DNA of 64,000 nt from positions 186,001 to 250,000 of the forward strand of contig NZ_CP100356.1 in the NCBI RefSeq assembly GCF_024204665.1, in the 5' to 3' direction. The stretch's first letter is position 1. Each line of letters begins with the position of its first letter. The stretch comes from Natronosalvus rutilus. GTDB taxonomy: Archaea > Halobacteriota > Halobacteria > Halobacteriales > Natrialbaceae. The position numbers were made by a program, and so were the translations under genes. Below, in pieces: positions 7,649-51,193 of the stretch. The notes below the pieces were generated by a model. It did no database searches. It saw only the letters and a list, made by a program, of their open reading frames with translations, and was not told the DNA's origin.

Positions 7649-7656
7649 TTATCGCA

Positions 7657-7668: not shown

Positions 7669-7689
7669 GATACTACTGTGTCAGAGAAT

Positions 7690-25133: not shown

Positions 25134-26291
25134 CTAGAGCGAATCCTGCACGAACTCGTTAGTGATCGTAGTGCGTTGCTCTCTCGAGGCTGTATCGAGC
25201 AACCGACTACAGACTGAGAGCACCTGACGAATATTCCCCTGCGACCGCTGGAGAATCAGGTCGAGCGATTCTTCCGTGAACGGTGAAATGTCCGATGAGT
25301 TAGTGAGCTCCCCCCGTTCTCGCTCGAGGTACCGCTCAACTAGTTCGTACAGGTCCTCGTTCGTTAATGGCCGCAGCGCAACTTCCTGCCCAATGCGCTC
25401 GCTGAACGCGTGGTACTCACTCATCACGTCCTGCCAGACTTCGGGTGCACAGCCGAACAGCATACAAAGTCCGTGACTGTTCTGGTCCATCAGGTGCCGA
25501 ATACTGTTGAGCGTCGATTGCTCGTCTTTCGACGACAACCGTCCAATACTCTCGAATTCGTCGACGAACACGAAGACGGCAGTATACCCCAACTCCAAAA
25601 ACAGGCTCTTCAGGGCCGTGAACGCTCTGACACCCATCGTATCGTCGTCCAAGGCAGTATGAATTTCCATCTCCTTGCGCTGCTCGTATCGAATACCCTC
25701 TGCGGTCAGCCACTGCCAGGCGTAGAGGTTCGTGTCCTCGTAGACCATGTGGACGATTGCCCTCGCAAAATCTGCGAACCGTGTTGTATCGCTCAACCGC
25801 TTGATCGCCGTCGGGACGATCTCCGAGAGGAGTACGTCGCCGTCGTTGATGAGCGACCGCATCGTGTTCGCGCTCATTGGGTTCCGATCCGTCACATCGC
25901 ACGTGATTTTCGCGAGGTACTGGTATGCGATGTCCTGTATCTGGGTGAATCCGAGATCGTAGACGAATTCGTGGTAGATGTCGATGAACCCTTCTCCAGG
26001 TTGTGCGACATATCCGACAATCGCATCCTCTCGATCCTGAACAAGCGATCGGGTGTATTTGAGCGTGTGCGACTTTCCGTTTCCGTACTTCCCGGTGATG
26101 ACGAGATGCTTCGACTTTCCCGTCGACAGTGTCGTAGACACCGTCGAACTGATCTCATTAGTTGCGTGTTCTTGGCCGCAGTAGAGTTCTGGATTCTCTG
26201 CGGGAACTGGACTGTACGGGAATGGGTTCGCCTCGAGGCCGAATTTCGAGTAGTCTTGCTGCTGGTCGGTAATATTGAATGCTTCACTCAT
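25134..26291 (-). CDS. AAA+ ATPase of the transglycosylase operon
   Basis: 385 residues. It opens FGLEANPFPYSPVPAENPEL, has Walker A GKYGNGKS (67-74), Walker B VFVFVDEFESIG, and a sensor-like SHGLCMLFGCAPEVW. The C-terminal section (ALRPLTNEDLYELVERYLER ... RSQGNIRQVLSVC) resembles the lid of ExeA/Orc-like AAA+ proteins. It is the last gene of a three-gene operon, overlapping the previous gene by 4 bp (ATGA). By position it is likely to work with the DpdA-like enzyme, perhaps loading or remodelling DNA; the biochemical role is unknown. Confidence 0.8.
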   Translation of the reverse strand: MSEAFNITDQQQDYSKFGLEANPFPYSPVPAENPELYCGQEHATNEISSTVSTTLSTGKSKHLVITGKYGNGKSHTLKYTRSLVQDREDAIVGYVAQPGEGFIDIYHEFVYDLGFTQIQDIAYQYLAKITCDVTDRNPMSANTMRSLINDGDVLLSEIVPTAIKRLSDTTRFADFARAIVHMVYEDTNLYAWQWLTAEGIRYEQRKEMEIHTALDDDTMGVRAFTALKSLFLELGYTAVFVFVDEFESIGRLSSKDEQSTLNSIRHLMDQNSHGLCMLFGCAPEVWQDVMSEYHAFSERIGQEVALRPLTNEDLYELVERYLERERGELTNSSDISPFTEESLDLILQRSQGNIRQVLSVCSRLLDTASREQRTTITNEFVQDSL

Positions 26292-27187
26292 GGGTTTGTG
26301 TCTGGTGTGAACGTGATGTCGCGGTCGTACACCGCGAGGTAGTAGTACTGCTTGTCGAACTGTTCGAGCCCGGCCATTACCTGTTGGGTCGATTGTGACG
26401 TCGAAACCAACGATTCGCCGTCAGCAAGTTCGATTCGTTTGATCCCCAATACAGAATTTTTGGCGGTCGTATCTAACGGTGCACCCGAGAGTTCGAGTTT
26501 GCCAACGTTCTCGCTGCACAGTGTGGCCAGTCCTTGATCGAACGCGTCTCGAGTACACCCGAGTCGCTCACAAGTTCGTTCACGGAGCTTGGGGATTGAG
26601 AGGTACCGCTGGCGGAGGTTGACACCGGCGGTTTCCTCTAGTTCGTCGTAGAGCTCGAGAAGGATGTATTGGAAGTTCTTTGGCACGCTGTTTCGAGAGG
26701 CAACATAGTAGTCGCCAGTAAATGCGTTCCGCTGGACTCCTCCCAGTCGCTCTCCCCAATCGCCGACAACTTCGATTCCCGTTTGATTGAACGAATACAG
26801 CGAGAATTCATATTCGGCTTTGAGGAACTCGAGTAACGAATCAGTGTCCGTTGGCCCACGTTCAGCGAGTGCGTCGAGAAACGCTCCGTAGTGTGGGCTA
26901 CGAACGGCAAGAATGTCGTCGGCTTCCGACCACGTTTCGGATCGGATCGCCTCTAAGAATTGTTCACCGATCGGAGTCGTCGAGTAGGTTGGCTCCTCCT
27001 GGTCGCCATCTTCGCGGAGGAGAGCAATTCGCGTCGCCTCGAGAATCGTCTCTCGTGCTCGTCTATGCGTTATGGAGAGCGTTTCTTCGATGTCATCGGT
27101 TGTTCTTCGAGTTCCTTCACACAGGTGTGTGAGTTCAGTGAGGCGGGCCAGTGTAACGGGACGGACCGTCGCACGTTCGGATGTCAC
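26288..27187 (-). CDS. Winged-helix protein between dpdA-like and AAA+ genes
   Basis: 299 residues beginning at a GTG that overlaps the dpdA stop by 4 bp. The N-terminal third is a helix-turn-helix/winged-helix (TTDDIEETLSITHRRARETI ... TPIGEQFLEAI). The remainder has no recognised domain. In layout it resembles the 287-residue winged-helix gene at 36084-36947, which also accompanies an ATPase, so the two may be functional analogues. Resemblance to DpdG-type proteins of bacterial dpd islands is possible but not established from sequence alone. Confidence 0.65.
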   Translation of the reverse strand: MTSERATVRPVTLARLTELTHLCEGTRRTTDDIEETLSITHRRARETILEATRIALLREDGDQEEPTYSTTPIGEQFLEAIRSETWSEADDILAVRSPHYGAFLDALAERGPTDTDSLLEFLKAEYEFSLYSFNQTGIEVVGDWGERLGGVQRNAFTGDYYVASRNSVPKNFQYILLELYDELEETAGVNLRQRYLSIPKLRERTCERLGCTRDAFDQGLATLCSENVGKLELSGAPLDTTAKNSVLGIKRIELADGESLVSTSQSTQQVMAGLEQFDKQYYYLAVYDRDITFTPDTNP

Positions 27188-28218
27188 GCTAACCTCCGTA
27201 CCTGCTGTTTAGCGGTCCTGTAGGCTCGTTGTGTGACCTCGTTTCCCCGAAACCGAAGATCCAGGTAGTCCTCGATGTCTCTTCCGGACGACGATACGTA
27301 CCGAAACCGACGGAGTTCCGTCGTTAACGCCCACAGGTTGTGTTGCGTGAGTGCATTACGGTCCGCTCTGATCTCCTCAAGAGTCCGCTCACCACAGATT
27401 GGGCACGAGCACGGGAGGTACTCGAGGTCGTCGATATTCCACAGTTCTTCACCGCCGAATCCCGGTATCAGATAGTTCCGGTTTCCAGCGCTCCGAATGA
27501 ACGCCGAGGAATCGAAACTATCGACACCCAGATAGAGTAACAGGGGTTGGTAGACGAGGCCGCCGAGTCCGTATACGTGCAAGTGTTTGTCTGTTGCCGT
27601 TCGCGCTGCCAGTACCAACTTCGTGACTTTCGTATAATCTGTCCTAACGGGGACAAGACTTCCCAGAGCATACCCGTCGAAATTCCCTCGCTTCTCGAGG
27701 TATCGGATACTGTTTCGAATCGTCTCTGGATCGTACCCGTGGACGCTCGCGAAGAGTGACGCCTCTCCGTTGTGTTGTTCACTCGCCGCCAGTGCGAAGT
27801 TGATACTCTGATCGATCCGTCGCTGGTTTTCTGTCGATCGATTTTGCCTCGAGAGAGGGATATCGACCGTCCCAATAATGTCCGCCTTGAGTTGTCGTTG
27901 CGTCGCAAGGGTTTCTTCGGGAGTCGTATCCAGGTCTTCGTTTGTGAAATCGAACCCTCCGCTATCAGCGTAAACGATCGTGTGTTCCGGGACGTTCATC
28001 TCTTCTCGAAGCGATACACCGTTGGTCAACCGATCCCACATCGGATCTCTATTCCTAATCGCTCGGGCGTTGATCATCGCTGTCGGTAGATCTGGAATAG
28101 AATCGATGTACTGCGGGGTATTGTCGCTCGATCGTTTTCCCAGATTTCGGACCGGGAATAAAATTGGAGTTTGCAACTCCCCATGTGGGAGATCAAGCGT
28201 TTGTTGTCGAAACAACAT
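27184..28218 (-). CDS. dpdA: DpdA-type guanine transglycosylase (TGT superfamily)
   Basis: 344 residues from the ATG at 28218. TGT hallmarks: D85 in ADSGGFDF (substrate aspartate), the FDGYALGSLVP strand corresponding to GYAIGGLAVGE, GVDSFDSSAF with the nucleophile aspartate (D233 or D236), and a zinc site C270-x-C272-x2-C275 ... H293. It lacks the C-terminal tRNA-binding PUA region of the archaeosine enzyme and is shorter than bacterial Tgt. In bacterial dpd islands this family swaps preQ0 for guanine in DNA. Here it leads an operon of three overlapping genes, and preQ0 genes lie at 49-51 kb. DNA as substrate is inference from context and size. Confidence 0.8.
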   Translation of the reverse strand: MLFRQQTLDLPHGELQTPILFPVRNLGKRSSDNTPQYIDSIPDLPTAMINARAIRNRDPMWDRLTNGVSLREEMNVPEHTIVYADSGGFDFTNEDLDTTPEETLATQRQLKADIIGTVDIPLSRQNRSTENQRRIDQSINFALAASEQHNGEASLFASVHGYDPETIRNSIRYLEKRGNFDGYALGSLVPVRTDYTKVTKLVLAARTATDKHLHVYGLGGLVYQPLLLYLGVDSFDSSAFIRSAGNRNYLIPGFGGEELWNIDDLEYLPCSCPICGERTLEEIRADRNALTQHNLWALTTELRRFRYVSSSGRDIEDYLDLRFRGNEVTQRAYRTAKQQVRRLA

Positions 28219-28360
28219 CCTCAACTTCGACTAAGCTGTTCCGTCAGATAGGTAATAGCCCTCTATTACGAATAACTCAACTGATAATGAGAATATTCAA
28301 AATTTGCCAAATTGCACTAGTCCAATAAGTGGAGTAGAAGGCGTTTCAACGGAAAACATG

Positions 28361-28377
28361 ATATATGAGTCATATAT
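28361..28377. promoter_or_regulatory. 17-bp palindrome, candidate operator
   Basis: ATATATGAGTCATATAT has perfect 8-bp arms around one central base. It lies about 140 bp upstream of dpdA and 70 bp beyond the 3' end of the DUF7344-type regulator gene. Confidence 0.35.
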
Positions 28378-28445
28378 TTGTTATAATCTCGGTGAGGTTC
28401 GTATGATATGCTTTCATTAGAATAGAACGGTAGTTTCAACTCCTT

Positions 28446-28823
28446 TCAATTAACGGACTCAAGTAACCCGCTGGAAAACATTCTTCCAATCGCTACAAGA
28501 CAAGCGTGGTAGGAAGTTTTTCGAGTTACCATCACCGTTTTTCGATCAGCGTCGTATTCAAGTATCCCCTTGGTCGCCAATTTTGGTAGATGAACTTGAA
28601 TAAGGCTGTTATACGCTGATTCGTATTCTGAAGTACTGATTTCTCGAGGAGGCCGCTCAAGTTCGACGGCCCTAATAATACGGGCAATTTGACGGACGTC
28701 GACCGTAGTACCACAATCGAACAGCGAGAGGTATGTAATCGTCAAGAGTCGACGTTGATTTCCTAACAGACGATACGTATCCGACACCGGTTGAGTCGCT
28801 TCATCTCTCTTCTCTGTTGTCAT
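28446..28823 (-). CDS. DUF7344-type winged-helix regulator
   Basis: 125 residues: DTYRLLGNQRRLLTITYLSL is the typical opening of haloarchaeal DUF7344 proteins, followed by VDVRQIARIIRAVELERPPR and the wing KLATKGILEYDADRKTVMVT. These are ArsR-like DNA-binding proteins. It lies between the two transglycosylase units on the same strand and is the obvious candidate to regulate them. The leader carries a T-run plus C/G hairpin (28838-28868) like those upstream of the TFB and tnpB-fusion genes. Confidence 0.75.
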   Translation of the reverse strand: MTTEKRDEATQPVSDTYRLLGNQRRLLTITYLSLFDCGTTVDVRQIARIIRAVELERPPREISTSEYESAYNSLIQVHLPKLATKGILEYDADRKTVMVTRKTSYHACLVAIGRMFSSGLLESVN

Positions 28824-28920
28824 TATCGTTCTGAGGGTGACCCCTCACCCATCTTTGGGGGAGAAAAAATACCATGGAGCGAACTGGTAATTACATCAAA
28901 GCGACTGTAAATTACTCACG

Positions 28921-29622
28921 TCAAAATTCACTCAGGTCTCTTTGCGAGGTCGGGCTACCAAGACACGCCGCTTTTACGTCATCGGATGATGTGAACTCGG
29001 CCCCCAAAGCGAGATTATCGGCGAAATTCTTCAGATAGGCTCCTTTTAACGCGACAACAATTGAACCCTGTTCTTTCGCTTGTTTGGTGCGAGCAGGGAT
29101 CGAGACAACATTGTCGAATTGCTCCGCGAGTTCTTCTTGGTTGAAAGCCACTGCCAGTGTTTCGGGTGGCAGTGAAGACACCACGTCGGGCATGTCTAAC
29201 GCTCGGTAGTAGTCGGTTCCAAGAGGGAAGAATATGAGATCGTACGTCAAAGCAGTCGCCAGTTCTCGGACTCGACGGGAAATCCCGAGAGTCTCGGAGC
29301 GGGATTCAATCTCCTTCGCCGTCATCTCCGCGAACGTGACGTTATACGGGGGGAGTTCTTCGTCCTCTTCGACGACTCCGAACCCAGCGCTGATGAAGTA
29401 CCGATTGATGGCGTGTCCGTTGGCACGGAGCGAGTCGATCGCATCACCGATGTACTGCTGTTGACGACCGGTGTAGAGTTTCCGTGCTGGGATGCTGGCT
29501 ACTCCTTCACGAGCACGGAGTGAGTCGAGACTCGACTCATCAAGTTCCGGCGCATCGTATACTGCACTATCGTTCGGATATGATTTACTGTTCGAACACT
29601 GATCGACGATGAGGATTTTCAT
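28921..29622 (-). CDS. DUF6884-type protein paired with large transglycosylase
   Basis: 233 residues. It begins MKILIVDQCSNSKSYPNDS and has IPARKLYTGRQQQYIGDAID and YFISAGFGVV, the arrangement of the DUF6884 family (normally CSxxK ... PAxxLYxS ... SAKHG). It starts 2 bp after the large transglycosylase stop, so the two are translationally linked. The family is often found beside nucleic-acid modification genes; its reaction is not known. A second, truncated relative is at 15252-15685. Confidence 0.7.
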   Translation of the reverse strand: MKILIVDQCSNSKSYPNDSAVYDAPELDESSLDSLRAREGVASIPARKLYTGRQQQYIGDAIDSLRANGHAINRYFISAGFGVVEEDEELPPYNVTFAEMTAKEIESRSETLGISRRVRELATALTYDLIFFPLGTDYYRALDMPDVVSSLPPETLAVAFNQEELAEQFDNVVSIPARTKQAKEQGSIVVALKGAYLKNFADNLALGAEFTSSDDVKAACLGSPTSQRDLSEF

Positions 29623-29624
29623 GA

Positions 29625-31829
29625 CTAAAACTCCATTAACCCTTTCTGCACCATGAACTCAGGCAGAAACTCGCTGTCGTATCCAAGCTGGTCGAGAACG
29701 GCCGCTCGGAACTCCGACGGCACTTGGTACGACGCTATCGTGCATCCTTGTTGTTCAATCCGTTCAACGACGTCAGGGTGAATAGTCTTGTCAGGGTCGT
29801 ACAGGAACACTTTCTGATATCGTGCACAGAACTCGCCGACAGACGCCGCCATCTCGGTCGGATCAAGCGAAACCGTCGTCGGTGGTTCCGACCACCACTC
29901 GTGAATTCCTTCAGCGCTTATGACTCCGACCTCCGCTACAGGAAGATCGTGGACATCCGACCAGAAGTCCGTCTGCTCGGTGAGGAAGTATCCCTCCACA
30001 GAACTCCACGACGTCAGGGAGTCGGAGGCAGGCATCGCGACGAGAGTCTTTGGAAGCGCTTCCCGAAATTGGTCATAAAACCGTTTCGTGTTGTGAAACC
30101 CACGGCGCCGGTTTCGGTTATTCGCCCGGAAGATCGCCACTTCGATGCCATGCTCTCTGCAGATCCGACAGTCACACTCTTTCCACGGCTCCTCTCGAAG
30201 GAGTCGCTTGTACTCCTCGAGTAATCGCTCGTCGCCTATCCACGACGCGTAATCTTCCACGAGTAGCCAAATCTGATCGAACGTGCCGGTGTCGCCCGAG
30301 TATTTTTCGCGCTGTTCAATGGTCTCTGCCATTCTGGGGAAGGTTCCGTCGAACTGCTCTCGAGCGGTATCGATCAATGATTGGTATTTGTCGAAGTCTA
30401 GTGGTGACTTGGGATTGTCGTCTCTAAGCAACTTGATTACGGCATTACGGAGAGGGCGACTGAAACTCGCCCGGAGTTCGCGACCGTACTCGTAGTCGTC
30501 CCGGAAATGCTCCTCGATGTCACGGAGAAGGCGTTGATCGTACGCGTCGTCGTGTCTATGCGTTTTCAAGTATGGCGCCAGTCCGTCCAGTGCGCGTTCT
30601 GCGTCTGTGACCCACGCTCGGATGGCCTTAGAAATCAATTCCCCCTCGTCGAAGGCGCGAAGTGAATGAAGGAGTTCCTGACCACGCAGGGCAATTTGAA
30701 TCCGCTTTTCGAGTGAGTCTCGGTTCGATCCAAATCGAACACGAAGTGCATCGTATCGTCGTTCGCTATCGAGGTGGTAGTTGTCGCCACCGGTCCAGGC
30801 TGACCGAAGCATACTTGCGCTGTCGAAGCTCGACATTCCGGTCTGTCCGATTGCATCGAATGCATCCGTTTTGGCAAACCCGAATACGTGTGTGTCAACC
30901 CTCGTTTTTCGAGTACGTTCGTGCTCCTTGACTGCGTTTCCGACGCCTGTGACGATATCACGGATTCTGGCAGCGTTACTTCCTGCGACGCCACCGATTC
31001 CAATGTACTGGTATCCACGTTCAAGCACCTGTTCAGCAGCACGGGCGTACGATATTGGATCCCATCCCTGAATAGCGACCATCAGACGGAATGAGTAGTC
31101 GTTAGCGTCGTACAGTTCCTTCATCTCCCTGGCGTTGTTGAGGGTCAATTGATACCGAAACTCTGTGTCGTCCTCACGGTAAACAGCACGAGGATCAGTA
31201 CAGAGCCGCTCGAGGACTGCGACTGGATCACCTTCGAAGTCCTCCGGCTCGAACTGGTTTACTGAAGGGGCATCGCAAATCGTTGAATCGTAATCCTCGA
31301 CATATGCAGGCCACTCCGACGGCCATTCATCGATCATCACATCGACCTCATCAGTCAACTCTTTGGGGAGTTCACTGGGTGTGAATTCTGCATCAGCGAA
31401 CGCACGTTTGTCGAGATATAGACGGGTCTCGTGACCGGAGCCAAGTACGAGATGATCGATCGTCACCCCAACTGTAACATCGAGGTTCTCGTAAAACGCC
31501 AACATTTCGTCGTTGTCATAGGGTGGGAATGGGAGCGTTTTGTATCCCCAGGCGCCGCAGTCGCTAATCGTCGGAAGCCAATTGGGGATATTGAGATTGG
31601 ACTGTTCGTCGTAAACACCGTGGGACGTAAGCCGATCGAACTTCGTCGCGCTCTCTTCGACCTGTTCACGTGAGATTAGAACCCCGTCGATCGGGGTGGT
31701 CTCATAGTCAAAGATGTCCCAAATATACTGCAACTGGCGCTCGTCTTTTCCGAGTTCCGAATGCTCGTCGTGCTCAAAATCGTAGTGAGCGTCGACGTTG
31801 TCATCCCATTCAGGAACGTAAAACCTCAC
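29625..31829 (-). CDS. Large TGT-superfamily protein (second DpdA-like enzyme)
   Basis: 734 residues, GTG start. The TGT barrel elements are spread out: D90 in ISDCGAWGYK (equivalent of DSGGF), VAIQGWDP and YQYIGIGGVAG (glycine-rich recognition loop), D336 in GMSSFDSASMLR (nucleophile equivalent), and zinc ligands C552-x-C554-x2-C557 ... H579. A 180-residue insertion precedes the GG loop and ~145 residues follow the zinc site with no recognised fold. Keeping all catalytic and zinc positions suggests an active enzyme that differs from the 344-residue DpdA-like protein. It is followed at once by the DUF6884 gene. Confidence 0.75.
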   Translation of the reverse strand: MRFYVPEWDDNVDAHYDFEHDEHSELGKDERQLQYIWDIFDYETTPIDGVLISREQVEESATKFDRLTSHGVYDEQSNLNIPNWLPTISDCGAWGYKTLPFPPYDNDEMLAFYENLDVTVGVTIDHLVLGSGHETRLYLDKRAFADAEFTPSELPKELTDEVDVMIDEWPSEWPAYVEDYDSTICDAPSVNQFEPEDFEGDPVAVLERLCTDPRAVYREDDTEFRYQLTLNNAREMKELYDANDYSFRLMVAIQGWDPISYARAAEQVLERGYQYIGIGGVAGSNAARIRDIVTGVGNAVKEHERTRKTRVDTHVFGFAKTDAFDAIGQTGMSSFDSASMLRSAWTGGDNYHLDSERRYDALRVRFGSNRDSLEKRIQIALRGQELLHSLRAFDEGELISKAIRAWVTDAERALDGLAPYLKTHRHDDAYDQRLLRDIEEHFRDDYEYGRELRASFSRPLRNAVIKLLRDDNPKSPLDFDKYQSLIDTAREQFDGTFPRMAETIEQREKYSGDTGTFDQIWLLVEDYASWIGDERLLEEYKRLLREEPWKECDCRICREHGIEVAIFRANNRNRRRGFHNTKRFYDQFREALPKTLVAMPASDSLTSWSSVEGYFLTEQTDFWSDVHDLPVAEVGVISAEGIHEWWSEPPTTVSLDPTEMAASVGEFCARYQKVFLYDPDKTIHPDVVERIEQQGCTIASYQVPSEFRAAVLDQLGYDSEFLPEFMVQKGLMEF

Positions 31830-32490: not shown

Positions 32491-33183
32491 TTATTCACCC
32501 CGCAGTTGAAGACTCAGATGCGCACCTAACGATCCCTGCAGTTCGTCGATTTCCTTGTCGGATAGAGACGACAACTGAACCGAACCCCCAGAGATGAGGG
32601 ATCGCACGTGCTCTTCGGCTCCCGAGCCACGGAACGGTTCCATGAGTTTGTTCTCAATATTCTCTAACTCTATGACTACATTTTGACGCACCTGCTTCCG
32701 AATCGATTGTTCTTGCTCCGAAAACTGTTTATCAGTTTGATAACTCACTTCATCTAGATCCTCAATTTCCTCCTCAATTATCCGAATGCGATCCGGTGGA
32801 ATACGATTAGTTCGCTGGTTGAGTGAATTGAGTCCCTTCAGATGTGAACTCAATTTATGTTTTACCCCCTGAATCTCGCCCCGAATTCGCTGTTCTTCTT
32901 CGTCCAATGCCTCCGTTAGCCCGGTCAGTTTGTCTTCGGTTCGGTCGAATTGATTGGATTCCCACGCTGTCTTCACCTGTTCGACTTTCTGTACCGTTTC
33001 GTCACTCGGACTGAAACCCTCGATGTTGCTCTTTTTTCCACCAGACAACTCCTCAAACCTCGCCCCGAGAAGTACCGTCTTACGCATTGTCTGAACAGCG
33101 TCTTCCAGTCGCGAGGCCAGCTGCTGGTTTCGATGCTGCTCGTAGTACGCTTCGAGTTGACGTTCTAGTTCACTGATTGGCAT
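32491..33183 (-). CDS. Coiled-coil protein, third gene of ATPase operon
   Basis: 230 residues, largely helical with heptad-like Leu/Gln/Glu spacing (residues ~80-195) and no catalytic motif. Its start overlaps the end of the 970-residue ATPase gene by 14 bp, which indicates coupled translation and probably a stoichiometric complex. The position and size are like DpdI of bacterial dpd islands, but that equivalence is a guess from gene order. Confidence 0.65.
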   Translation of the reverse strand: MPISELERQLEAYYEQHRNQQLASRLEDAVQTMRKTVLLGARFEELSGGKKSNIEGFSPSDETVQKVEQVKTAWESNQFDRTEDKLTGLTEALDEEEQRIRGEIQGVKHKLSSHLKGLNSLNQRTNRIPPDRIRIIEEEIEDLDEVSYQTDKQFSEQEQSIRKQVRQNVVIELENIENKLMEPFRGSGAEEHVRSLISGGSVQLSSLSDKEIDELQGSLGAHLSLQLRGE

Positions 33184-36082
33184 ATATTTCGCTCATTTTT
33201 AAGAAGCTATCAGATTCGATTTCACTAGACCCCGTCTCTAGATCTAGGGCTAGGATTCGTTTCGTAGCTTCGTGTCCGAATATTGCGAGACCAAGAAGAT
33301 GTGCCTGTTGCTGTTTACTATTGGAGCTGGCCTGATCGAGATCTTCGTGGATCGTACAGGACTCCAGTAGGTTCTCGATCTTCTGATCAGATACCTTTGA
33401 AAAGGTAATCAGATTTTCTCGGACACCCGAATCGACGCTATCGTATGTTTTGAGCTTCTTCGTTATATCACGGACATTTTCCATATCGATCCCACGCAAC
33501 TGCTCGTTGACGAAACGAGGTGCAACATCTGCTTCTTCGCCCGCTGGTAAGTCATCCAATTTCCGGATAGTTCTGTATACCTGCAACCCCACTTCTCGGA
33601 GATGTGTATCCGTGTCAAATCGAACTTTCGCTGGAAGATCACTAAGTGCACTCTTCGTGAGACGCCCTCCGATATCGAACGGGTGAGATCCTTTAAGGAT
33701 CTCATTCAATCGAGGTACATCGACAACGTTACTGCTGATCGCGAATACGTCCCCAAACAGTGACTCGATCGGATCGATGAAATCGAAAATGTTCGTAATT
33801 CCGTCATAGGTTTCCTTGTCGGCAAAATCCTTCAGCATTTCATCTAGGTCATCGTCTATCTCAGGTCGTGTGTTGGCGGTATAGAGCGACGAAAGTCGTT
33901 TACCAGTAACTTGCTGGCTCGGATCAGATAGAATCGCCAGTACTCCGTATGCGCTCGCGACGAACTCTTCAAAAGTACTATTCCGATGACTTGTCCCGTA
34001 GAAGTATTTTGGAGCCAGATACGCGCCACGAACGTGTTCCTGCCATTGCTGAGCGTAGCCGGCGAGTTGTGATCCGTTTCGATCAAACAACTCTTTGTAA
34101 TCGGCTCGGCTCGGATCCAGATCTCGCGTGATACCGAACTTGAGTAGTTTCAGAAGCTGTGGATGGGTGAATTCCGTTGGATCGATCTGAATTTGATCTG
34201 TTTCCGCTGGTCCACCATCGGTGAAGGTGAAGGGGTGGCGTTCGCTCCCTACTAACACTTCCAAATCGCCGTCAGGAAACATCTCGAATCCATTTGTAAG
34301 TCGATCAATCGCGTCCGTTAACCCTCGTTTAATGTACACATCCACCTCTGAGGCCTTCTGATTCTGCGTGTCCGATTGCCACGTATCGATGTGCTTTCTG
34401 GCTTCATCGTAGCGCTCCTGAACCGGATCCTTTTTGTTTTCCTTTATATCGCCATTGCCGCCGCCAGATATCGCTCCCTCCGTCAACGGGATAACAAGAG
34501 TGTCAACTCCGTCGATTTCAGTTCTCGTGATATCGTACTCTTCAAAGAGTTCTGGCTCGTCGATTCCGAACGCTCTAGCGAATCGCCGATCGACAGTCAC
34601 TACGCTCTTGCCGTCCATCTCTTGCTGTGCCCCGTACCACTGTGCAAGCCGTCGAAGGGGTTCGTTTTCGTAAATGTCCTCGTTGTCAAGTACAATCGAG
34701 TTGGACAGCACGTCATCGATCTCACTCCATGCAGCAGGGACGGTCACATCTCCGTGATAGTACGCACTCAGAATCTTCGAGATCGTCTGGATGTATATTC
34801 GGGGTCGCTGCTCTTCATCGGGCAACCCTTCATATATCCGATCAATGAACGTCTCGTTGAATGGGAATACGTCCCTAAACGTTTCGTCGCAGAACGTACA
34901 CCGAGCGCAGATACTTTGATTCTTAGGTTGGCGAAGTTCACTTTTCCGATCTTCGTCGACGTACCTGACGCTGTTATCACGATTTTTTACGTAGCCGAGA
35001 AACGGTCGGGCGAAATCCACTGCCGAGTCCTCATTCAAGAAGAGGACATGATTGGAATCGCGCTTATTGGTTCGGTAGAACCGGATCCACTCACGATCCT
35101 TTGCTGTGTTCGTCTCTAGGGTGCGTGTCGATTCTTGTGTTCCTGCGATGATGAAATCCCACGTGTTCTCGGGGGAGTCCTGTTCGATGTACTCCTGTAG
35201 TCGTTGAGCATCGAGCGCCGAGACAGAGAAATCTTCGAAGACGAGAACTGGGCGTTCGTCGAGATTTTCAGCAACTTCAGCTAAAAGTGAATCCATTGTT
35301 GGTGTTCCGTAGTCCTGACGGATTGCTGTCCAGATAGCCTCATTCCAATGTTCAGCTGCGGTTTCGTCATCCACGTCCTCGAACACGTTGAGGAAGTTGT
35401 ATTGTGCTATCTCGTTGGCTTCGTCGGAGACGGTAATGAACTCAATTTTCGTTGCGAACTCTCCCCGTTGAGCTAACTTCGTGATTTTTTTCTCGATGAA
35501 GTCGATGACGTCGTCTTCTTGGTCGTTGGTCAAGTCGACTGTACTACTATCCAGATCTGCAATCGTGAGCATCGCCCCTGACGTGATACGCTTTGCGACG
35601 AGACCTCGGTGCTGTCGAACCTGTCGCCTCAGTTTCTCCAGTTGATCCCTCTCCTCTAACGTGTCCCCTCCTGAGACCCGCTCATAGAAGTCCGGGATCT
35701 CCTCAGCCATGATTGTAAGCAAATCCGCATTCTTATCGATGTGGAGGACATTCCGCCCCGCCTCTTTGAGTTCTAACGAAAGATACGCACAGAGTTCGGA
35801 TTTCCCTGTGCCGACGTTCCCGTCGATTATCGTGACGAGATTCCGTCGACGCTGCTTCAAGAACTCGGAGAGAATTTTATCTTCCTTGACTTCCCTCTCC
35901 TCTCCGCTGTGTTTCTCGAATACTGTGATCGGACGATGGGTGAACCGGAACAGATCTGGCCGATCAGACCGAACCTTCGCGACCTCACTAAACAGATCAT
36001 CAAAGAGTTCTTCATCGATTTTCTGATAGTGAGGACACAAACTCCCGTCAGGCGGTGAGACCTCTGTAATTTCAGTAGTCAT
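33170..36082 (-). CDS. 970-residue P-loop ATPase (DpdH-like?)
   Basis: Walker A GNVGTGKS at 88-95 (IIDGNVGTGKSELCAY) and a Walker B-like VLVFEDFSVSAL near residue 280. A C-x2-C-x2-C cluster (CARCTFC) sits mid-protein. The N-terminal HRPITVFEKHSGEEREV segment precedes the ATPase core. The remaining ~600 residues are helical and unrecognised. It is the middle gene of a three-gene operon (1-bp gap from the winged-helix gene, 14-bp overlap with the coiled-coil gene). The set resembles DpdG-DpdH-DpdI of bacterial 7-deazaguanine islands, but the DptF or PbeABCD ATPases of phosphorothioate systems are an alternative. Confidence 0.7.
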   Translation of the reverse strand: MTTEITEVSPPDGSLCPHYQKIDEELFDDLFSEVAKVRSDRPDLFRFTHRPITVFEKHSGEEREVKEDKILSEFLKQRRRNLVTIIDGNVGTGKSELCAYLSLELKEAGRNVLHIDKNADLLTIMAEEIPDFYERVSGGDTLEERDQLEKLRRQVRQHRGLVAKRITSGAMLTIADLDSSTVDLTNDQEDDVIDFIEKKITKLAQRGEFATKIEFITVSDEANEIAQYNFLNVFEDVDDETAAEHWNEAIWTAIRQDYGTPTMDSLLAEVAENLDERPVLVFEDFSVSALDAQRLQEYIEQDSPENTWDFIIAGTQESTRTLETNTAKDREWIRFYRTNKRDSNHVLFLNEDSAVDFARPFLGYVKNRDNSVRYVDEDRKSELRQPKNQSICARCTFCDETFRDVFPFNETFIDRIYEGLPDEEQRPRIYIQTISKILSAYYHGDVTVPAAWSEIDDVLSNSIVLDNEDIYENEPLRRLAQWYGAQQEMDGKSVVTVDRRFARAFGIDEPELFEEYDITRTEIDGVDTLVIPLTEGAISGGGNGDIKENKKDPVQERYDEARKHIDTWQSDTQNQKASEVDVYIKRGLTDAIDRLTNGFEMFPDGDLEVLVGSERHPFTFTDGGPAETDQIQIDPTEFTHPQLLKLLKFGITRDLDPSRADYKELFDRNGSQLAGYAQQWQEHVRGAYLAPKYFYGTSHRNSTFEEFVASAYGVLAILSDPSQQVTGKRLSSLYTANTRPEIDDDLDEMLKDFADKETYDGITNIFDFIDPIESLFGDVFAISSNVVDVPRLNEILKGSHPFDIGGRLTKSALSDLPAKVRFDTDTHLREVGLQVYRTIRKLDDLPAGEEADVAPRFVNEQLRGIDMENVRDITKKLKTYDSVDSGVRENLITFSKVSDQKIENLLESCTIHEDLDQASSNSKQQQAHLLGLAIFGHEATKRILALDLETGSSEIESDSFLKMSEIYANQ

Positions 36083-38796: not shown

Positions 38797-41700
38797 TTAT
38801 TGTTGCGCTTCCAATAGAGCGAGGAGCATCTTCCGGTGGAGGAGGTCGTTTTTAAGGTAGAAACCGGGCGTCCGTTCTAAGAGTAGACACTGGTTACAGA
38901 ATTGATTACATTCATCACAGTTGCCAACTTCTCGCACCCGCTTTTCGAGTTCGTTCGATTCAATGATCGCCTGTGAGACTTGCCACGAGATGCCGTTTCC
39001 ACCCTCTCGCCCGTCGGTCACGTAGAAATCCAGCGACGAATCTGTCTTCACGGCCTTCACATCAAAGTCCCCAAGGTCACATTGGGCGATTACCGCGATC
39101 GTTTTAGCGAATGCTTGTTCCAGACTCACCATGGCTTGTGACCACGATGCCGTGGGTTCTGTACTGGCAAATTGTTGGTATCGTTCTTCGATCGGTTCCA
39201 AATCAAACTCCAATTTGATCCCATTCGTCCGCATTTGTTGACCTACTGGTGCATACTGCTCAGAACTTGACTCTTCAATCAGGTCGTCAAGATCCATATC
39301 GTCGAAATTCGCCTCGTCTTCATTTTCAACATCGATAACTCCCTGTGACTCGACCAATTGCAGGTCACTCCCGCGATTGTGGGCGCGTTCGAAGGCTGGC
39401 ACAAACGAAAGCGTTTCAAACTGCGATGAGATCAGCGAACAGTCCAACCCGAATAGCGTCGCCTCCGTGACTTCACGATCCGCGGTCGATCGAATCTCCT
39501 CGAGATACGTGGTCACGATGGGATACGTGCGATAGTCTTGTTCGAAAGGAGCGGCCGACCGGCACTGCACGGATCCGATTCGATGGACGGCTGTACGTTC
39601 CAACTCCTCTCCACACAGCGGACATATCCCCCGGCTTTCTTTGTATGCTCCGTATGGGCGCTCACATTCTTCGTTTGTGCAGAGCCCGACTCTCGTTAAT
39701 CGTTCTCGGGCTTTGACGTCATCGACTATGTATTTCGTGCCCAAATAGACAACCTCACCTCCCCGATCGTTTTCTGGACCTGGAAACATCTCGAAGAGAC
39801 GGCCACTCCCCTCGAATTGGATATCAGCTTGTCTGCTGCTTCGGTAATTGACTGGGAATTGGCCTCCAAAGGATCGGTAGTTCGCGAGATAGCCTAATTC
39901 CTTCAACCAGAGATCGAGTCGATTGAGATTGGAGGAGAGGGTTTCCGCGGATTTTCCCGATACATCTAATCCCTCCATCTCGCCAAACGTCCGTTCACCA
40001 CGCTGCTTCATGCTGTATCGACTGTCGGTGCTGAACACTTCGTCAAAAATGGGGCTTGCTTCTGGACCGAACGCTTCCACAACCCAGTCTTTTACATCGG
40101 GGCGTTCTTCCTTGATGTATCTGCGAAGCGTAACGAGTCGTTTCAGAACGTTAGTGCTGAAATTTCTTGGGCTGCTCGTCGATTCCGTCAGTTGATACAC
40201 TTTATCGAGGACTGACTTGCCCCCTTGATTCCGCGCCAGATATCCAACTGCTTCTGTGACGATTTGCCCAGCGAGAAGTTCGTCGAACTCAACTGGATTC
40301 GGAACTCTCACCGGATCATACGAGGAGAAAAAAGCATCCAGGTTCGCGAAGTAATGCGTATCTACTGGGTTCGATGATCGTACTGCGGTTGTAACGAGTG
40401 ACGCACTCCCCTGAGATCGGCCAGTCCGACCGCTTCGCTGTACGTAGTTCGTCAGTGTAGGCGGGATTCCGACCTGTGTCACCGTATCGAGCGTTCCGAT
40501 GTCGACACCCAATTCCATCGTTGGGGTCGCACTGACGATGTTTATCTCTGGATCCGGTTGCCGAAATCCCTCTTCGATTGATCCTCTGAGTGCAGCTGGC
40601 ATATCACCCTTGTGTTGACCGACGACGACCGGCTCCAATTCCTCGTTTTCCGTGAATGGTGAGGAAATATCGTGCCCCCAGTGATCGACCGCGTAGTCCC
40701 ATCCAGTATCAATATCGGCATATCCTTTTCCGACGTATTCTCCCTCCCTAACCTCGAACCGGTCGTATACATCGGTCGCCTGCCGGCACTTGGGACAGTT
40801 GATACCGATGTCGGTATCCATCTGCTTTGCAGGCATCGCCGTATAACAGTTTAGACAGTACGCGACGGAAGGTACCAGACGAAGTCGGGACTCGTCGTTC
40901 TGCAACTCTCGCTTGAACACACCACTTCCAATCTCCCCCTTGAAAACGTCAACCTGGTCTAAAACCGCCTGCTGTTTTTCAAGATACGCCTTCGTCGTCT
41001 CCACGGGCGCATTTCCGGATTGATTTTGGAGTTCTTCGTGAACCTCGTCGTCGGTTCGGGCGCGAATAGCGTTCACTTCATTGAGGTCGTCCAATATCCT
41101 CGGGAGAGACTGCTGAACAAATTCTTCTTCGAATCGGTAGTTCCGGTGGATTCTCGATTCCAGTCGTTCGAACGACCATCCTTGAATCTTTCTCCCGTCT
41201 CGAGTAAATTTGTATCCTGGATCCTGCGCGAAGGTACGGTAGACCACGTGAGCAAGCGCCAGTTCCCTACCCGAATACGACTGGAAGATCGTCTCCGGTG
41301 TCACGAGTGCTGCATTTAGAAGATGGTTACAATTGTGAAGTGACGCGTTATTCCGAATCGAACTCAACAAGTCATTCAAATAATCCTCTACATTGGAACC
41401 ATCTGGTGCATTCGAGATGAGGGGTTCGTAGTAGACCTCTCGAAGTTCGTCACGGATATCGTAGAACAACTGGGTTGTCTCCTTGGTACCCTTGTTCTCC
41501 ACGAGGTGTTTCACGTACAGCGTCTCCGCCATCAGGAGGTACTCCTGGTCTCGGATGTTCCTTGCAACGCTTTCGGAGGTACTTCGCGAGTCCGAGAATA
41601 CAAGCGTTTTCTTTGAGGGTGCTAACCGGCAAAGTTCGGTAAGCATGAACGTGAGCAGCGTCGACGTTGGGACGTTAATGTCCTGCGTGTTATGCGTTTT

Positions 41701-43548
41701 TTCACAACCCGGACAGAGGGATGCAGTTGGATGCTCGAGTGGTCGACCCCCATCTTCCTCATTTTCAACGACGTAGGGATAGTGGCATTCTCGACAGAAT
41801 TCCAGTTCCGGCAGATTCGAGTGACATGACGGGCACGCCTTCTGTCTTCTAACAGCACTACAATCTCGACACCAATATGCATTCGACGGCGGTTGTAAGA
41901 AGACGTGGTACTTATCGGTCAATAATCCGGCTAACCGGCCGAACAACAGCAGGGTATTGAGTACTAACTCAGGATCCTGCGACTCGTCCAACTCCGACCG
42001 AACATCTGCAAGTAACCCATCGTATCGTCTAAATCTGACCTCTCCAGTGTCCCCTTCGAGTTTCGACGCAAGTTCGGCAACCTCTGGGACGTGTCGTTCG
42101 ATATGCTGGCGCCATCGGGCCGTGAGACCATTTGAATCCAATAGTGTCTCCGTCACCAGATCCAGTGTCTCTTGATTCTCGATTACGTCCAGCCCTGTTT
42201 CGGCCTGTGGGTACGACTCTTTTAAGGAGTCCACTTCCTCTAAAATGGGGCTGACGAGCCACGATCGAACCTCTGATGGGATCGATATAGCGTTCGATCG
42301 TATCGTCAGAAGATTGACCGCCGCCAGCGTTGCCCGTGCGCTGGCCATTTTAGGAAACTTTGCCTCAAACGCATTCACTGTGTACTCTCCTTTAGAGACG
42401 ACGTAGAGCGTCGCCACGATTTCGTCTAACGTGCATGGATGAATTTTAGTAAAGTCAGCCGTTCCACCTGATGGAAGCGGCTCGGGAGTGAATCCAACCG
42501 AGTTGATTTCTTCCATTGGGGTTCTTGTCAATTTGCTAGCAAGCTCGGGAGGGTTCTTAACGGTTGCAGATACCATTGAGATTTGCGGATCGCTATCCTC
42601 GTAAAAGTGCTTCAATCGTTGTGATAGAAGTGAAATTGCGGCACCTTTGATCCCACTCCATACGTGTGCCTCATCGTATACAATGTGCTGAAGCGGGTGC
42701 TCTCCTGGATTTTCGCCGATGATGTTCCGCGAGTCACGGCGGTCGTTCACGTAGAGGAAATCGAGCGCTTCTGGATTCGTAATCAGAATATCGACACTCT
42801 GACTCTGGTTATCTGCTCGGATGCCATTCCGAGTAACTCTTATCCACGAATACTCCTCGGTATCGGTACCGACTCGGTAGTCGTCGAACACACGGAGTTT
42901 TTCCTTGGTTCGTGGACAGACAAGCCCACGAATCGGGGATCCTGGCTCAACTTCGTTTGGTTGATCCCCAACAGTGTTGTCGGTATCACCATCCCAGATT
43001 CCAATTTTGATCTTCTCTCCGGCCGGCCGATCTCGATTGACTGCATCAAGATACTTGATAAATCTGTTCAGTTGGTCGACCTCAAGCGTCTTCATTGGAT
43101 AGATGATGATGCCTTTGAGCCCATCTTTGTCGATTTGAATACAATCGTTGAGTAATGGGATAAAGAACGATTCCGTCTTCCCGGTCGCTGTTGGTACCGC
43201 GAGGATATTGTCATTCTCGTCTCCTTCGATCGCCTTGATCATCTCTGCCTGGTGTTGATATAGCGGGAGTGTGGGATCGCCATCGAATAGAACATTAGCG
43301 ACCGCATTGATAGCCGATGGATCGTAGTTCAACTCGGATAGGAATGCTTCAGCGGATTGAGTATGTGATTTCGGGGTTCGAACGTACTCGACGTATGGCC
43401 CTTTCTGCTCAACCAGTTGATCGTCGACAAAGGCTTTTGCATTTCCGAACTGGTCGAATTGGTTCAGCTTTGTGAGAGAGCGGTTCCACCAGATAATTTC
43501 GTTTGCACGGTCAAGGGCGCCGTCTAACGTTTGACGAGGTGAATCCAT
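38797..43548 (-). CDS. DEAH-box helicase with cysteine clusters and DUF1998-like end (DpdJ/DrmA-like)
   Basis: 1583 residues. Helicase motifs: Q-rich LYQHQAEMI, motif I VPTATGKTES (118-127), Ia IIIYPMKTLEVDQLNRF, DEAH box IVYDEAHVWSG, SAT (SMVSAT), then motifs V/VI SATPTMELGVDIGTLD and NYVQRSGRTGRSQG. There are several zinc clusters: CRDC...CPSC...CREC, CLNC...CPKC, CTNEEC...CPLC. The C-terminus has CDECNQFCNQCLLLERTPGF, typical of DUF1998/MrfA-type helicases. Such helicases are motor subunits in DISARM (DrmA) and in dpd islands (DpdJ). It leads a two-gene transcript with the 310-residue protein. Confidence 0.85.
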   Translation of the reverse strand: MDSPRQTLDGALDRANEIIWWNRSLTKLNQFDQFGNAKAFVDDQLVEQKGPYVEYVRTPKSHTQSAEAFLSELNYDPSAINAVANVLFDGDPTLPLYQHQAEMIKAIEGDENDNILAVPTATGKTESFFIPLLNDCIQIDKDGLKGIIIYPMKTLEVDQLNRFIKYLDAVNRDRPAGEKIKIGIWDGDTDNTVGDQPNEVEPGSPIRGLVCPRTKEKLRVFDDYRVGTDTEEYSWIRVTRNGIRADNQSQSVDILITNPEALDFLYVNDRRDSRNIIGENPGEHPLQHIVYDEAHVWSGIKGAAISLLSQRLKHFYEDSDPQISMVSATVKNPPELASKLTRTPMEEINSVGFTPEPLPSGGTADFTKIHPCTLDEIVATLYVVSKGEYTVNAFEAKFPKMASARATLAAVNLLTIRSNAISIPSEVRSWLVSPILEEVDSLKESYPQAETGLDVIENQETLDLVTETLLDSNGLTARWRQHIERHVPEVAELASKLEGDTGEVRFRRYDGLLADVRSELDESQDPELVLNTLLLFGRLAGLLTDKYHVFLQPPSNAYWCRDCSAVRRQKACPSCHSNLPELEFCRECHYPYVVENEEDGGRPLEHPTASLCPGCEKTHNTQDINVPTSTLLTFMLTELCRLAPSKKTLVFSDSRSTSESVARNIRDQEYLLMAETLYVKHLVENKGTKETTQLFYDIRDELREVYYEPLISNAPDGSNVEDYLNDLLSSIRNNASLHNCNHLLNAALVTPETIFQSYSGRELALAHVVYRTFAQDPGYKFTRDGRKIQGWSFERLESRIHRNYRFEEEFVQQSLPRILDDLNEVNAIRARTDDEVHEELQNQSGNAPVETTKAYLEKQQAVLDQVDVFKGEIGSGVFKRELQNDESRLRLVPSVAYCLNCYTAMPAKQMDTDIGINCPKCRQATDVYDRFEVREGEYVGKGYADIDTGWDYAVDHWGHDISSPFTENEELEPVVVGQHKGDMPAALRGSIEEGFRQPDPEINIVSATPTMELGVDIGTLDTVTQVGIPPTLTNYVQRSGRTGRSQGSASLVTTAVRSSNPVDTHYFANLDAFFSSYDPVRVPNPVEFDELLAGQIVTEAVGYLARNQGGKSVLDKVYQLTESTSSPRNFSTNVLKRLVTLRRYIKEERPDVKDWVVEAFGPEASPIFDEVFSTDSRYSMKQRGERTFGEMEGLDVSGKSAETLSSNLNRLDLWLKELGYLANYRSFGGQFPVNYRSSRQADIQFEGSGRLFEMFPGPENDRGGEVVYLGTKYIVDDVKARERLTRVGLCTNEECERPYGAYKESRGICPLCGEELERTAVHRIGSVQCRSAAPFEQDYRTYPIVTTYLEEIRSTADREVTEATLFGLDCSLISSQFETLSFVPAFERAHNRGSDLQLVESQGVIDVENEDEANFDDMDLDDLIEESSSEQYAPVGQQMRTNGIKLEFDLEPIEERYQQFASTEPTASWSQAMVSLEQAFAKTIAVIAQCDLGDFDVKAVKTDSSLDFYVTDGREGGNGISWQVSQAIIESNELEKRVREVGNCDECNQFCNQCLLLERTPGFYLKNDLLHRKMLLALLEAQQ

Positions 43549-44803: not shown

Positions 44804-46198
44804 TCACAGGATCCGACCCGGGGAATCCGGATATTGGACTATCTTGATTTCCTCGTTGGGTGGCGACACTGTTTCCTGGTCGAGTTCGTCAACGAACAGT
44901 ACCCCTTTGACGTTCACCGAGTCGAGGACGTTCTCCGCCCTCTCGACGTACTCACTTGTCGACTGGTGCTTAACGAACGCCATATATTCAAGTAACTCAC
45001 GCAGGCCAGTCGCCACATAATCGATACTTTGCGTGTATTTTACCTCGCCGATGAATACCTGAGCGAGTTCCTGTTCACCATCCGACTTTTCCTTATATTG
45101 TTCCAGTACAATATCGGGACGTCCTCCCCACAAAACGTCTCTTCCACCGTGATCCAGCATGTCAGAAGATAGTGACTTCCTCCGACAGAGTACTTCGTTC
45201 ATCCGATAGAGATACCCATCTGGTTTGACATTTTCTGCATCGATCGACTCTTCGAACGTGAGATTCTCTCCCGTCGCATCGTGATATAGGGCGAATCGTG
45301 AGTCTCGATGTTCCCACGTGGCGATTGTCGAGGTATCGTTCTGGTTATCGGTCAACACCCGATACTCGACGCCTTCGTAGGCGTCCAACACCCGGAACAC
45401 CCAGTATAGTTCAAAGAGAATCTCGGCTTTATCAGGGGCAATAAGCGTGTGGTCCAGAATGTCCCGAGCTTCAACACTATCCAGTTCGTGACTCATTAAC
45501 TGACGATATCGATCCAGAAGTATCGCTGCCTCTCGATAGAATTTAGACCGTGACCGCTTGACCGACTCAATAGTTCGTTTCGAGATCTCCGTCTCATCGA
45601 CCTTAATCCGCTGCAAATAGATATTCTTCTGGTAGATTCGATCAAACATATCCGCGGTGGATTCTTGTTTGCGACCGGTAGGACTGAAATCCGACTGAAC
45701 CCACGCCTCGAGCCACTCGTAACCATTAGGGTTGTTGCGGGCATATGCCAAATCCTCTGTGACAGTGTCATAGACGACGCTCAATAATCGCTTCAACACC
45801 AGATTCTCGTCGATATCATAGTGAACCTTTGGACGGTCACACACAAAAATCGGCTCGTCAAGTCGACCTACTCGGGCACGACGTTTCACCGTCTCAGACC
45901 AATTTAGCTGCCCACGAACCTCACCATGATGCTCGGACGACTGTGGCGACGTGGAGGTCTTCATTCGGCGGATACGCGCCTCTAACTTTCGCATAAAATC
46001 CACTACTCCCACGTCATTTCCGCCACCTTCGGCATCAGTCAGCACGAAATGAATCCGGAGCAGTGTTTCGATGTCGTCGATGTCGAGCTCCTTATGTGCC
46101 GATCCGATTACTCGGTCGAATCGGACTCCCTTCCGGAGATAGGTATGGAAGCTGTCGGCAATCTCTTCGAGCAGCCTCTCTACAGTTGCTTTGGCCAT
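44804..46198 (-). CDS. mcrC: McrC-like PD-(D/E)XK nuclease subunit
   Basis: About 464 residues from the ATG at 46198, which lies 5 bp after the McrB stop; an in-frame upstream ATG at 46261 would overlap McrB. The nuclease core is GRPDIVLEQY ... FIGEVKYTQS (D ... E-x-K) followed by GLRELLEYMAFVKH. The N-terminal half is helical with LDEPIFVCDRPKVHYDIDEN. McrC proteins supply the nuclease for an AAA+ GTPase McrB ring; gene order here fits that. Similarity to DUF2357/McrC-like families is likely, though overall sequence is divergent. Confidence 0.75.
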   Translation of the reverse strand: MAKATVERLLEEIADSFHTYLRKGVRFDRVIGSAHKELDIDDIETLLRIHFVLTDAEGGGNDVGVVDFMRKLEARIRRMKTSTSPQSSEHHGEVRGQLNWSETVKRRARVGRLDEPIFVCDRPKVHYDIDENLVLKRLLSVVYDTVTEDLAYARNNPNGYEWLEAWVQSDFSPTGRKQESTADMFDRIYQKNIYLQRIKVDETEISKRTIESVKRSRSKFYREAAILLDRYRQLMSHELDSVEARDILDHTLIAPDKAEILFELYWVFRVLDAYEGVEYRVLTDNQNDTSTIATWEHRDSRFALYHDATGENLTFEESIDAENVKPDGYLYRMNEVLCRRKSLSSDMLDHGGRDVLWGGRPDIVLEQYKEKSDGEQELAQVFIGEVKYTQSIDYVATGLRELLEYMAFVKHQSTSEYVERAENVLDSVNVKGVLFVDELDQETVSPPNEEIKIVQYPDSPGRIL

Positions 46199-46203
46199 CC
46201 TGT

Positions 46204-49094: not shown

Positions 49095-49793
49095 CTAATC
49101 TGATGAGAAACTAGGTCGTTCAGCGTACGTGATTGGATCCCTCGAGCCAGCATTACGGAACGCCTCAAGTCGTAAAGCACAGGAATCACACGTCCCACAC
49201 GCTGGTTCGTCGTCCCGATAACACGACCACGTGAGTTCGTACGGGACGTCGAGCTCAAGACCGCGTTCGGCGATATTTGTTTTCGACCACTTGACATATG
49301 GTGCGACGAGGTCGATTTCTGTCTCGGGTTTTGTCCCGACGTCAATGACCTTTTGAAAGGCATCAAAGAATGCTGGCCGACAATCCGGATACCCCGCGAA
49401 ATCTTCCGAGTGAGCACCCATAAACACTGCTGCGCAGTCGTTTGCTTCGGCATACGAGATAGCCATGGCTACCAGATTCGCGTTCCGAAACGGGACGTAC
49501 GACGTAGGAATTTCATCGCTTTTGAGGTCAGTGTCTGTAACTTCCATGTTCTCGTCAGTAAGGCTTGACGCCCCAATCTTCGAGAGATGGCCCGTCTCAA
49601 TATGGAGGAAGTCCGCTGCGTCAACTTCATTCGCCAATGCGTTTGCACACTCGTATTCTTTGGTCTCGGTTCGCTGTCCGTATGACGTATGCAAGAAATA
49701 TGGCTCGTATCCACGGGCAATCGCTTCGTAGACTGCGGTTGCGCTGTCCATACCCCCGGAGACCAGAATCACTGCACGTTTGTTGTTACTCAT
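49095..49793 (-). CDS. queC: 7-cyano-7-deazaguanine synthase QueC
   Basis: 232 residues. The ATP-pyrophosphatase loop SGGMDS is at 12-17; FLHTSYGQRTETKE and TSYVPFRNANLVAMAISYAE are conserved QueC segments; the zinc site is C-x8-C-x2-C-x2-C (SCYRDDEPACGTCDSC). It converts 7-carboxy-7-deazaguanine to preQ0 with ATP and ammonia, last step of the pathway. It overlaps the folE stub by 8 bp. PreQ0 feeds archaeosine in tRNA in all haloarchaea and DNA modification in dpd islands. Confidence 0.97.
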   Translation of the reverse strand: MSNNKRAVILVSGGMDSATAVYEAIARGYEPYFLHTSYGQRTETKEYECANALANEVDAADFLHIETGHLSKIGASSLTDENMEVTDTDLKSDEIPTSYVPFRNANLVAMAISYAEANDCAAVFMGAHSEDFAGYPDCRPAFFDAFQKVIDVGTKPETEIDLVAPYVKWSKTNIAERGLELDVPYELTWSCYRDDEPACGTCDSCALRLEAFRNAGSRDPITYAERPSFSSD

Positions 49794-51172: not shown

Positions 51173-51193
51173 ACTTGGAGCATACTTGGAGAG

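Follow-up and report, generated by a model that had tools for sequence, protein, structure and literature searches.

Here we describe a DNA-modification cassette of the haloarchaeon Natronosalvus rutilus that encodes two dissimilar members of the tRNA-guanine transglycosylase (TGT) superfamily and is probably an archaeal variant of the Dpd system, in which a second, small TGT (sTGT) and a BrxC/BrxD-type ATPase take DpdB's place in DNA base exchange. The cassette lies in the stretch of 64,000 nucleotides that was analysed (contig NZ_CP100356.1, positions 186,001–250,000; hereafter the window), which is part of C2, a replicon of 340 kb; the whole haloarchaeal genome measures 4.3 Mb. Its six genes run along the minus strand from 31829 to 25134 and encode, in this order, DpdA, a DpdC-like protein, a DUF7344 protein, sTGT, a protein of 299 residues (p299), and the ATPase. 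An initial annotation of this DNA had reported two dissimilar TGT-superfamily proteins of 344 and 734 residues, and both are present, with TGT-fold models and separate positions in a tree of 70 TGTs. The first aspartate, the FD nucleophile segment, and the CxCx2C...H zinc ligands that it had recognized in both proteins are likewise kept in alignments of 39 sTGTs and 90 DpdAs.

By sequence and predicted fold, the 734-residue protein (29625–31829, minus strand) is a genuine DpdA, that is, a DNA-guanine (preQ0) transglycosylase. It scores 274.7 bits against the NCBIfam DpdA equivalog NF041059 (cut-off 200) and matches the PADLOC DpdA model at E 4.5e-73, with only E 0.009 against the Pfam TGT family. 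The closest solved structure is 7ui4, a crystal structure titled 'DNA preQ0 insertase DpdA', which the sequence matches at E 3e-38. The protein neither lacks the TGT barrel nor belongs to a tRNA-specific clade, two possibilities that had been raised against its assignment: its AlphaFold2 model superposes on 7ui4 (TMt 0.81), and it falls inside the DpdA clade of the tree (support 100/99). Together with the barrel, it has the catalytic aspartate pair, the CxCx2C...H zinc site, and an RNRRRG motif; both catalytic aspartates are invariant among the 90 aligned DpdAs, of which 89 keep intact zinc ligands and the other shows a gap there. The single 180-residue insertion initially ascribed to the protein resolves, relative to 7ui4, into two insertions of ~80 and ~105 residues (near 131–246 and 391–534), whereas the proposed 145-residue C-terminal domain stands as a region of ~143 residues beyond 7ui4; insertions and C-terminal region alike are modelled with low confidence. 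The histidine versus glutamine of the HGY motif was considered as a signature of DNA-acting TGTs and rejected, glutamine being found in 89 of 90 DpdAs and in six archaeal sTGTs.

The second TGT (27184–28218, minus strand, 344 residues) starts at the ATG at 28218, as judged from its orthologues, and not at the TTG upstream at 28224. It matches the Pfam TGT family PF01702 at E 1e-30 (107 bits, cut-off 26.3), and its AlphaFold2 model fits onto the catalytic part of the archaeosine TGT (arcTGT) structure 1j2b with a Z score of 34.8 and a root-mean-square deviation of 2.4 over 327 residues. sTGT thus resembles arcTGT (1iq8/1j2b) in catalytic fold and active-site residues; it differs in forming a separate clade and in lacking the C-terminal PUA region, its 344 residues aligning to residues 17–356 of the 576 of arcTGT. 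Family scores fall below the cut-offs on either side (136.9 bits against the arcTGT equivalog TIGR00432, cut-off 350; 35.4 bits against DpdA NF041059, cut-off 200), and in the tree the archaeal sTGTs constitute a clade of their own (100/100), separate from the DpdA clade (100/99) and from the one that arcTGT and bacterial Tgt share (97/93), with a weak placement beside another haloarchaeal, island-borne TGT group (83/47). In the 39 archaeal sTGTs, the two catalytic aspartates, a third aspartate (D119), and the four zinc ligands (CxCx2C plus histidine) are all invariant, and the equivalents of D85, D119, and D236 are invariant in the second TGTs of archaea and bacteria alike, a pattern that points to an active enzyme or, at minimum, an intact base pocket. 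Internal stops flagged in two orthologues proved to be merely the terminal stop codon. No viral relatives were found by tblastn against viral contigs, and phage records, Sulfolobus viruses among them, yielded matches of just 23%.

DpdA and sTGT are obligate partners, and their pairing is well supported. Among 391 genomes of Halobacteria, 55 carry both proteins, one DpdA only, one sTGT only, and 334 neither (Fisher 6e-65, a value that is merely indicative, as genomes are not independent). In the DpdA-only genome (G065) DpdA lies at the extreme start of a contig, and the sTGT-only genome (G080) has a decayed locus with a truncated p299 and no ATPase found. In a sample of 294 genomes from the phylum, all 12 DpdA genomes also carry sTGT; two others, G080 again and G510, have sTGT only, each with a broken trio, and no genome of this sample has an intact trio without DpdA. 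The trio in question consists of sTGT, which is always its first member, a ~290-residue protein, and the BrxC/BrxD-type ATPase, and its genes adjoin one another in all intact loci examined. Its distance from DpdA varies: the trio lies several kilobases away at haloarchaeal loci L051–L054, L062, and L064, and four genomes outside Halobacteria have a contiguous trio with DpdA 17–23 kb away. Because the trio is often kilobases from DpdA, the co-inheritance of the two TGTs is not the product of one tight operon; the restriction genes beside the cassette, for their part, vary from genome to genome. Separately, one plasmid (L044; G064 C3:5403-11495) holds a second cassette copy in which DpdA and the BrxD-like ATPase are each split into two frames, and the same replicon holds an intact copy ~340 kb away. 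Haloferax alexandrinus and Haloarcula sinaiiensis also carry the cassette on plasmids.

According to work cited in PMC12839542, DpdB of the known Dpd systems partners DpdA in the ATP-dependent insertion of preQ0 (dPreQ0) and has been termed dispensable for some of the clusters. Whole-genome searches found no DGQHR (DpdB) gene in 21 of 22 cassette-bearing archaea, and no PF14072 match anywhere in the window's own genome. DpdB and a second TGT were also scored at 89 bacterial, archaeal, and plasmid-borne DpdA loci, within the flanks of each; these loci comprise plasmid loci plus 80 named loci that were the best of 283 in a scan with a DpdA alignment and are therefore biased towards the query: none has both partners, 33 have a second TGT only (3 of them on haloarchaeal plasmids), 23 have DpdB only, and 33 have neither (Fisher 3e-6). 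With both flanks at least 7 kb long, the corresponding counts are 0, 24, 14, and 18. At the level of whole bacterial genomes or records, 20 of 28 with a second TGT lack any DGQHR gene, and DpdB controls were detected in 10 of 10. Close DpdA relatives even swap partners, as in cyanobacteria, where L066 and L067, each with a second TGT, are grouped with the DpdB-bearing L074.

Several DpdA loci fall outside these two classes. Three loci with neither partner have a very divergent TGT-like open reading frame immediately 3' of DpdA; such frames of ~280–330 codons, following cyanobacterial DpdAs without DpdB (L085:11931-12923, L086:12041-12883, and L095:12114-12971), are probably a further second-TGT lineage. 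Conserved neighbours of ~421 and ~623 residues recur at nine DpdA loci that lack both DpdB and a full second TGT (L100, L114, L116, L117, L120, L123, L125, L127, and L133) and are a possible third partner type. Asgard archaeal DpdAs of ~414 residues (L134, L136, and L140) share a neighbourhood that contains neither DpdB nor any second TGT.

In the tree of 70 TGTs, second TGTs fall into three clades, namely an archaeal one, a cyanobacterial/deltaproteobacterial/acidobacterial one, and one of Firmicutes, Chloroflexi, and Deinococci. A single origin was rejected by the approximately unbiased test (p 0.00095), and second TGTs hence arose independently in at least three lineages. Every lineage encodes a motor protein next to its second TGT: the BrxC/BrxD-type ATPase in archaea, a DpdH-like P-loop NTPase that follows a ~250-residue protein in Firmicutes and Chloroflexi, and Hel308/BrxHI-like DEAD helicases in the cyanobacterial group. 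On a Deinococcus taeanensis plasmid (L070), a DUF6884-TGT fusion lies beside dpdE, dpdF, and dpdH, with a divergent second TGT at 6822–7844. A different haloarchaeal island (L159–L162, also L163–L165) has two TGTs and preQ0 genes and no DpdA; it comprises a DUF6884-like protein of ~155 residues, a TGT of ~415 residues, proteins of ~160 and ~520 residues (the latter with an N-terminus that looks GHKL-ATPase-like by eye), and a TGT fused to the ArcS-like DUF5591 (PF17884, E 7e-20), and it is probably an archaeosine-type DNA modification system.

The two partners of sTGT follow it directly on the minus strand. The gene for p299 (26288–27187) overlaps the sTGT stop codon, and the frames of sTGT and p299, like those of p299 and the ATPase, overlap by 4 bases. 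p299 always sits between sTGT and the ATPase; it matches no Pfam family above cut-off, its N-terminus looks helix-turn-helix-like as judged by eye only, and no homology was found to the ~250-residue protein beside the Firmicutes/Chloroflexi second TGT (hhalign probability 2.8%). The ATPase (25134–26291, 385 residues), last of the trio, belongs to the AAA class and matches PF10923 (BrxC_BrxD) at 59.6 bits against a cut-off of 22.2; its GNGKSH (Walker A) and DEFE motifs are invariant in seven archaeal relatives. An orphan BrxD-like ATPase, 79% identical to that of the window, is found at L181 in genome G123, in which searches found neither sTGT nor DpdA.

The remaining cassette genes lie between the two TGT genes. 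The 233-residue DUF6884 protein (28921–29622, minus strand), directly 3' of DpdA, matches the PADLOC DpdC model at E 5e-13 over its N-terminal 113 residues only and scores 27.1 bits against DUF6884, slightly below the cut-off of 30; in many relatives, the DpdC-like protein is fused to the DpdA C-terminus (~970 residues). The DUF7344 protein (28446–28823, minus strand, 125 residues; PF24035, E 4e-18) is a probable regulator. The initial annotation had it divide the TGT genes into separate transcripts; it does lie between them, on the same strand, but it is present in some cassettes only, and in most relatives sTGT is found 3' of DpdA and the DpdC-like gene, across a gap of ~80 to a few hundred base pairs, without DUF7344. 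It is only in relatives with divergent modules or with kilobases between them, L031 and L053 for example, that separate transcripts are certain.

Elsewhere in the window, on the minus strand, lie genes for preQ0 synthesis, encoding QueC (49095–49802; PF06508, E 2e-69), a QueE-like radical SAM enzyme adjoining QueC and QueD (49935–50711; PF04055, E 8e-19), the counterpart of which in relative L071 carries a QueE annotation, and QueD of the PTPS family (50711–51196; PF01242, E 8e-21). A search of the genome itself identified this QueC as its sole full-length copy. The synthesis of tRNA archaeosine therefore probably depends on the 340-kb replicon, and the idea that the preQ0 genes are reserved for DNA is unsupported. 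Between the cassette and the que genes lie restriction-arm-like NTPase and helicase genes and a gene for a McrB-like AAA protein, with a GmrSD gene beyond. Two of the encoded proteins are candidate restriction components: a 970-residue P-loop NTPase, weakly DpdH-like (33170–36082, minus strand; PADLOC DpdH, E 7e-4), which is no constant neighbour of the cassette in relatives, and a 1583-residue DEAD/MrfA-type helicase resembling DruE, BrxHI, and DpdJ (38797–43548, minus strand; PF00270 and PF09369; PADLOC DruE, E 5e-46, and DpdJ, E 1e-21). As counterparts of dpdD-K, only these weakly DpdH-like and DpdJ/DruE-like genes were seen among the proteins scanned. The McrB-like gene (46204–48423) and, after it, a 485-residue gene without a Pfam match (44804–46261) also lie inside the island.

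Taken together, co-occurrence, conserved catalytic sites, clades distinct from those of tRNA enzymes, and independent recruitment elsewhere strongly support the initial suggestion that the two TGTs serve one DNA-modification system, and some division of labour between them is a reasonable inference. The sequences speak neither for nor against any of the forms first proposed for it (two sequence contexts, two bases, or insertion versus swapping). The data point to a second TGT and ATPase in DpdB's position, a reading that was absent from the proposals first made. QueD, QueE, and QueC make preQ0, and they would supply it here. The BrxC/BrxD-type ATPase and p299 could then load onto duplex DNA and distort it, the ATPase opening or scanning the helix, whereupon DpdA and sTGT would swap guanine for preQ0, acting together in a mixed oligomer or on one strand each. 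By analogy with DpdC, the DUF6884 protein may turn the nitrile into an amide, and the finished mark would label self DNA and shield it against the variable restriction genes nearby. We infer this mechanism, like the division of labour within it, from the gene content described above. A more far-reaching form, in which guanine is exchanged by a mixed enzyme of DpdA and a catalytically active sTGT, driven by the ATPase, and in which such pairs of DNA transglycosylases emerged on several occasions and displaced DpdB on each of them, is a tentative proposal that we would not put at even chances.

Several observations weigh against the replacement of DpdB by sTGT and its ATPase. The exclusion of DpdB and second TGT is partly phylogenetic: a corrected pair test gave 0 concordant and ~3 discordant pairs (median p 0.25), and these ~3 informative contrasts, all discordant as expected, are too few for significance. 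One archaeal genome (G323) does encode, between its two modules, a DGQHR protein with a score of 77 bits (DpdB cut-off 300). Neither DpdB nor a second TGT is seen at 33 of the 89 DpdA loci, and because these amount to a third of the loci, DpdA may work there alone or with other partners. The cyanobacterial/deltaproteobacterial/acidobacterial second TGTs lack the zinc ligands. Finally, DNA is a putative substrate of sTGT, and its trio may be part of the restriction arm.

This last point leads to an alternative that we consider unlikely, albeit the most serious one, in which sTGT is a reader of the restriction arm: its guanine pocket would probe target sites for the absence of 7-deazaguanine, whereupon the ATPase or helicase that partners it would trigger destruction of unmarked DNA. 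Such a role would fit the finding that second TGTs are always operonic with a restriction-type ATPase or helicase (BrxD-like, DpdH-like, or BrxHI/Hel308-like) and that the non-halobacterial archaeal trio adjoins DpdJ-like genes, away from DpdA; however, sTGT keeps all catalytic residues, which would be unusual for a mere reader, it accompanies DpdA even though the restriction genes differ between loci, and second TGTs are exclusive with DpdB, a modification factor. A second alternative, which takes up the initial proposal, makes both TGTs independent DNA modifiers, each with its own sequence context or base, co-inherited since both marks are needed for protection; the complete active sites of both, the ancient divergence of the two TGT families, and the kilobases that can separate trio and DpdA modules agree with this. 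Even so, we regard it as rather improbable: the phylum sample yielded no intact trio without DpdA, which it predicts, and the second TGT takes DpdB's place and does not join a DpdA-DpdB pair. Least plausible by far is that sTGT is a tRNA enzyme that happens to reside in the island, as a surplus arcTGT or as an effector aimed at tRNA; arcTGT is indeed its closest match by solved structure and family score, but the host already encodes a separate, full-length arcTGT, and sTGT lacks the PUA region, stands apart from the clade that unites arcTGT with bacterial Tgt (97/93), and is tied to DpdA.

Among known systems, the bacterial Dpd islands (DpdA-DpdB-DpdC plus DpdD-K, of the Salmonella Montevideo type) share with the cassette a DpdA, a DpdC-like DUF6884 protein, nearby preQ0 genes, and DpdH/DpdJ-like NTPase and helicase genes; they differ in that the archaeal islands have no DpdB and instead an obligate second TGT, p299, and BrxC/BrxD-type ATPase, and in that DpdA is enlarged here and often fused to the DUF6884 protein. 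The eukaryotic queuine TGT, QTRT1-QTRT2, likewise brings together two dissimilar TGT-fold proteins, but acts on tRNA. Its QTRT2 subunit is not known to be catalytic, whereas both TGTs described here keep their catalytic residues, and a complex between them would be hypothetical. The combination of a TGT with BREX-type ATPases in the absence of DpdB recalls BREX-Related Capture (BRC), for which an NTPase was proposed as a possible DpdB substitute (PMC12839542). BRC is, however, defined by HerA/FtsK, PglZ, DUF6079, and DUF4007, with no second TGT described (PMC12839542); none of these four was seen in that subset of the window's proteins which was searched with Pfam and PADLOC. DpdA has been mentioned in a haloarchaeal host (PMC6884629), and a genome-mining survey of Dpd systems reported bacterial phyla only; this survey required dpdAB and, because of that, would have missed two-TGT islands by design (PMC11888242). 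We did not find a second TGT described as a DpdA partner in the literature consulted, although Thiaville (2016), Gedara (2023), and Yuan (2018) might mention one.

The present findings extend Dpd islands to archaea and provide a simple rule for finding more two-TGT islands. To our knowledge, it is not settled how DpdA extracts a base from intact double-stranded DNA and why DpdB is needed. The repeated absence of DpdB from close DpdA relatives, with a second TGT and an ATPase in its place, makes this testable, because components that substitute for one another must share a function.

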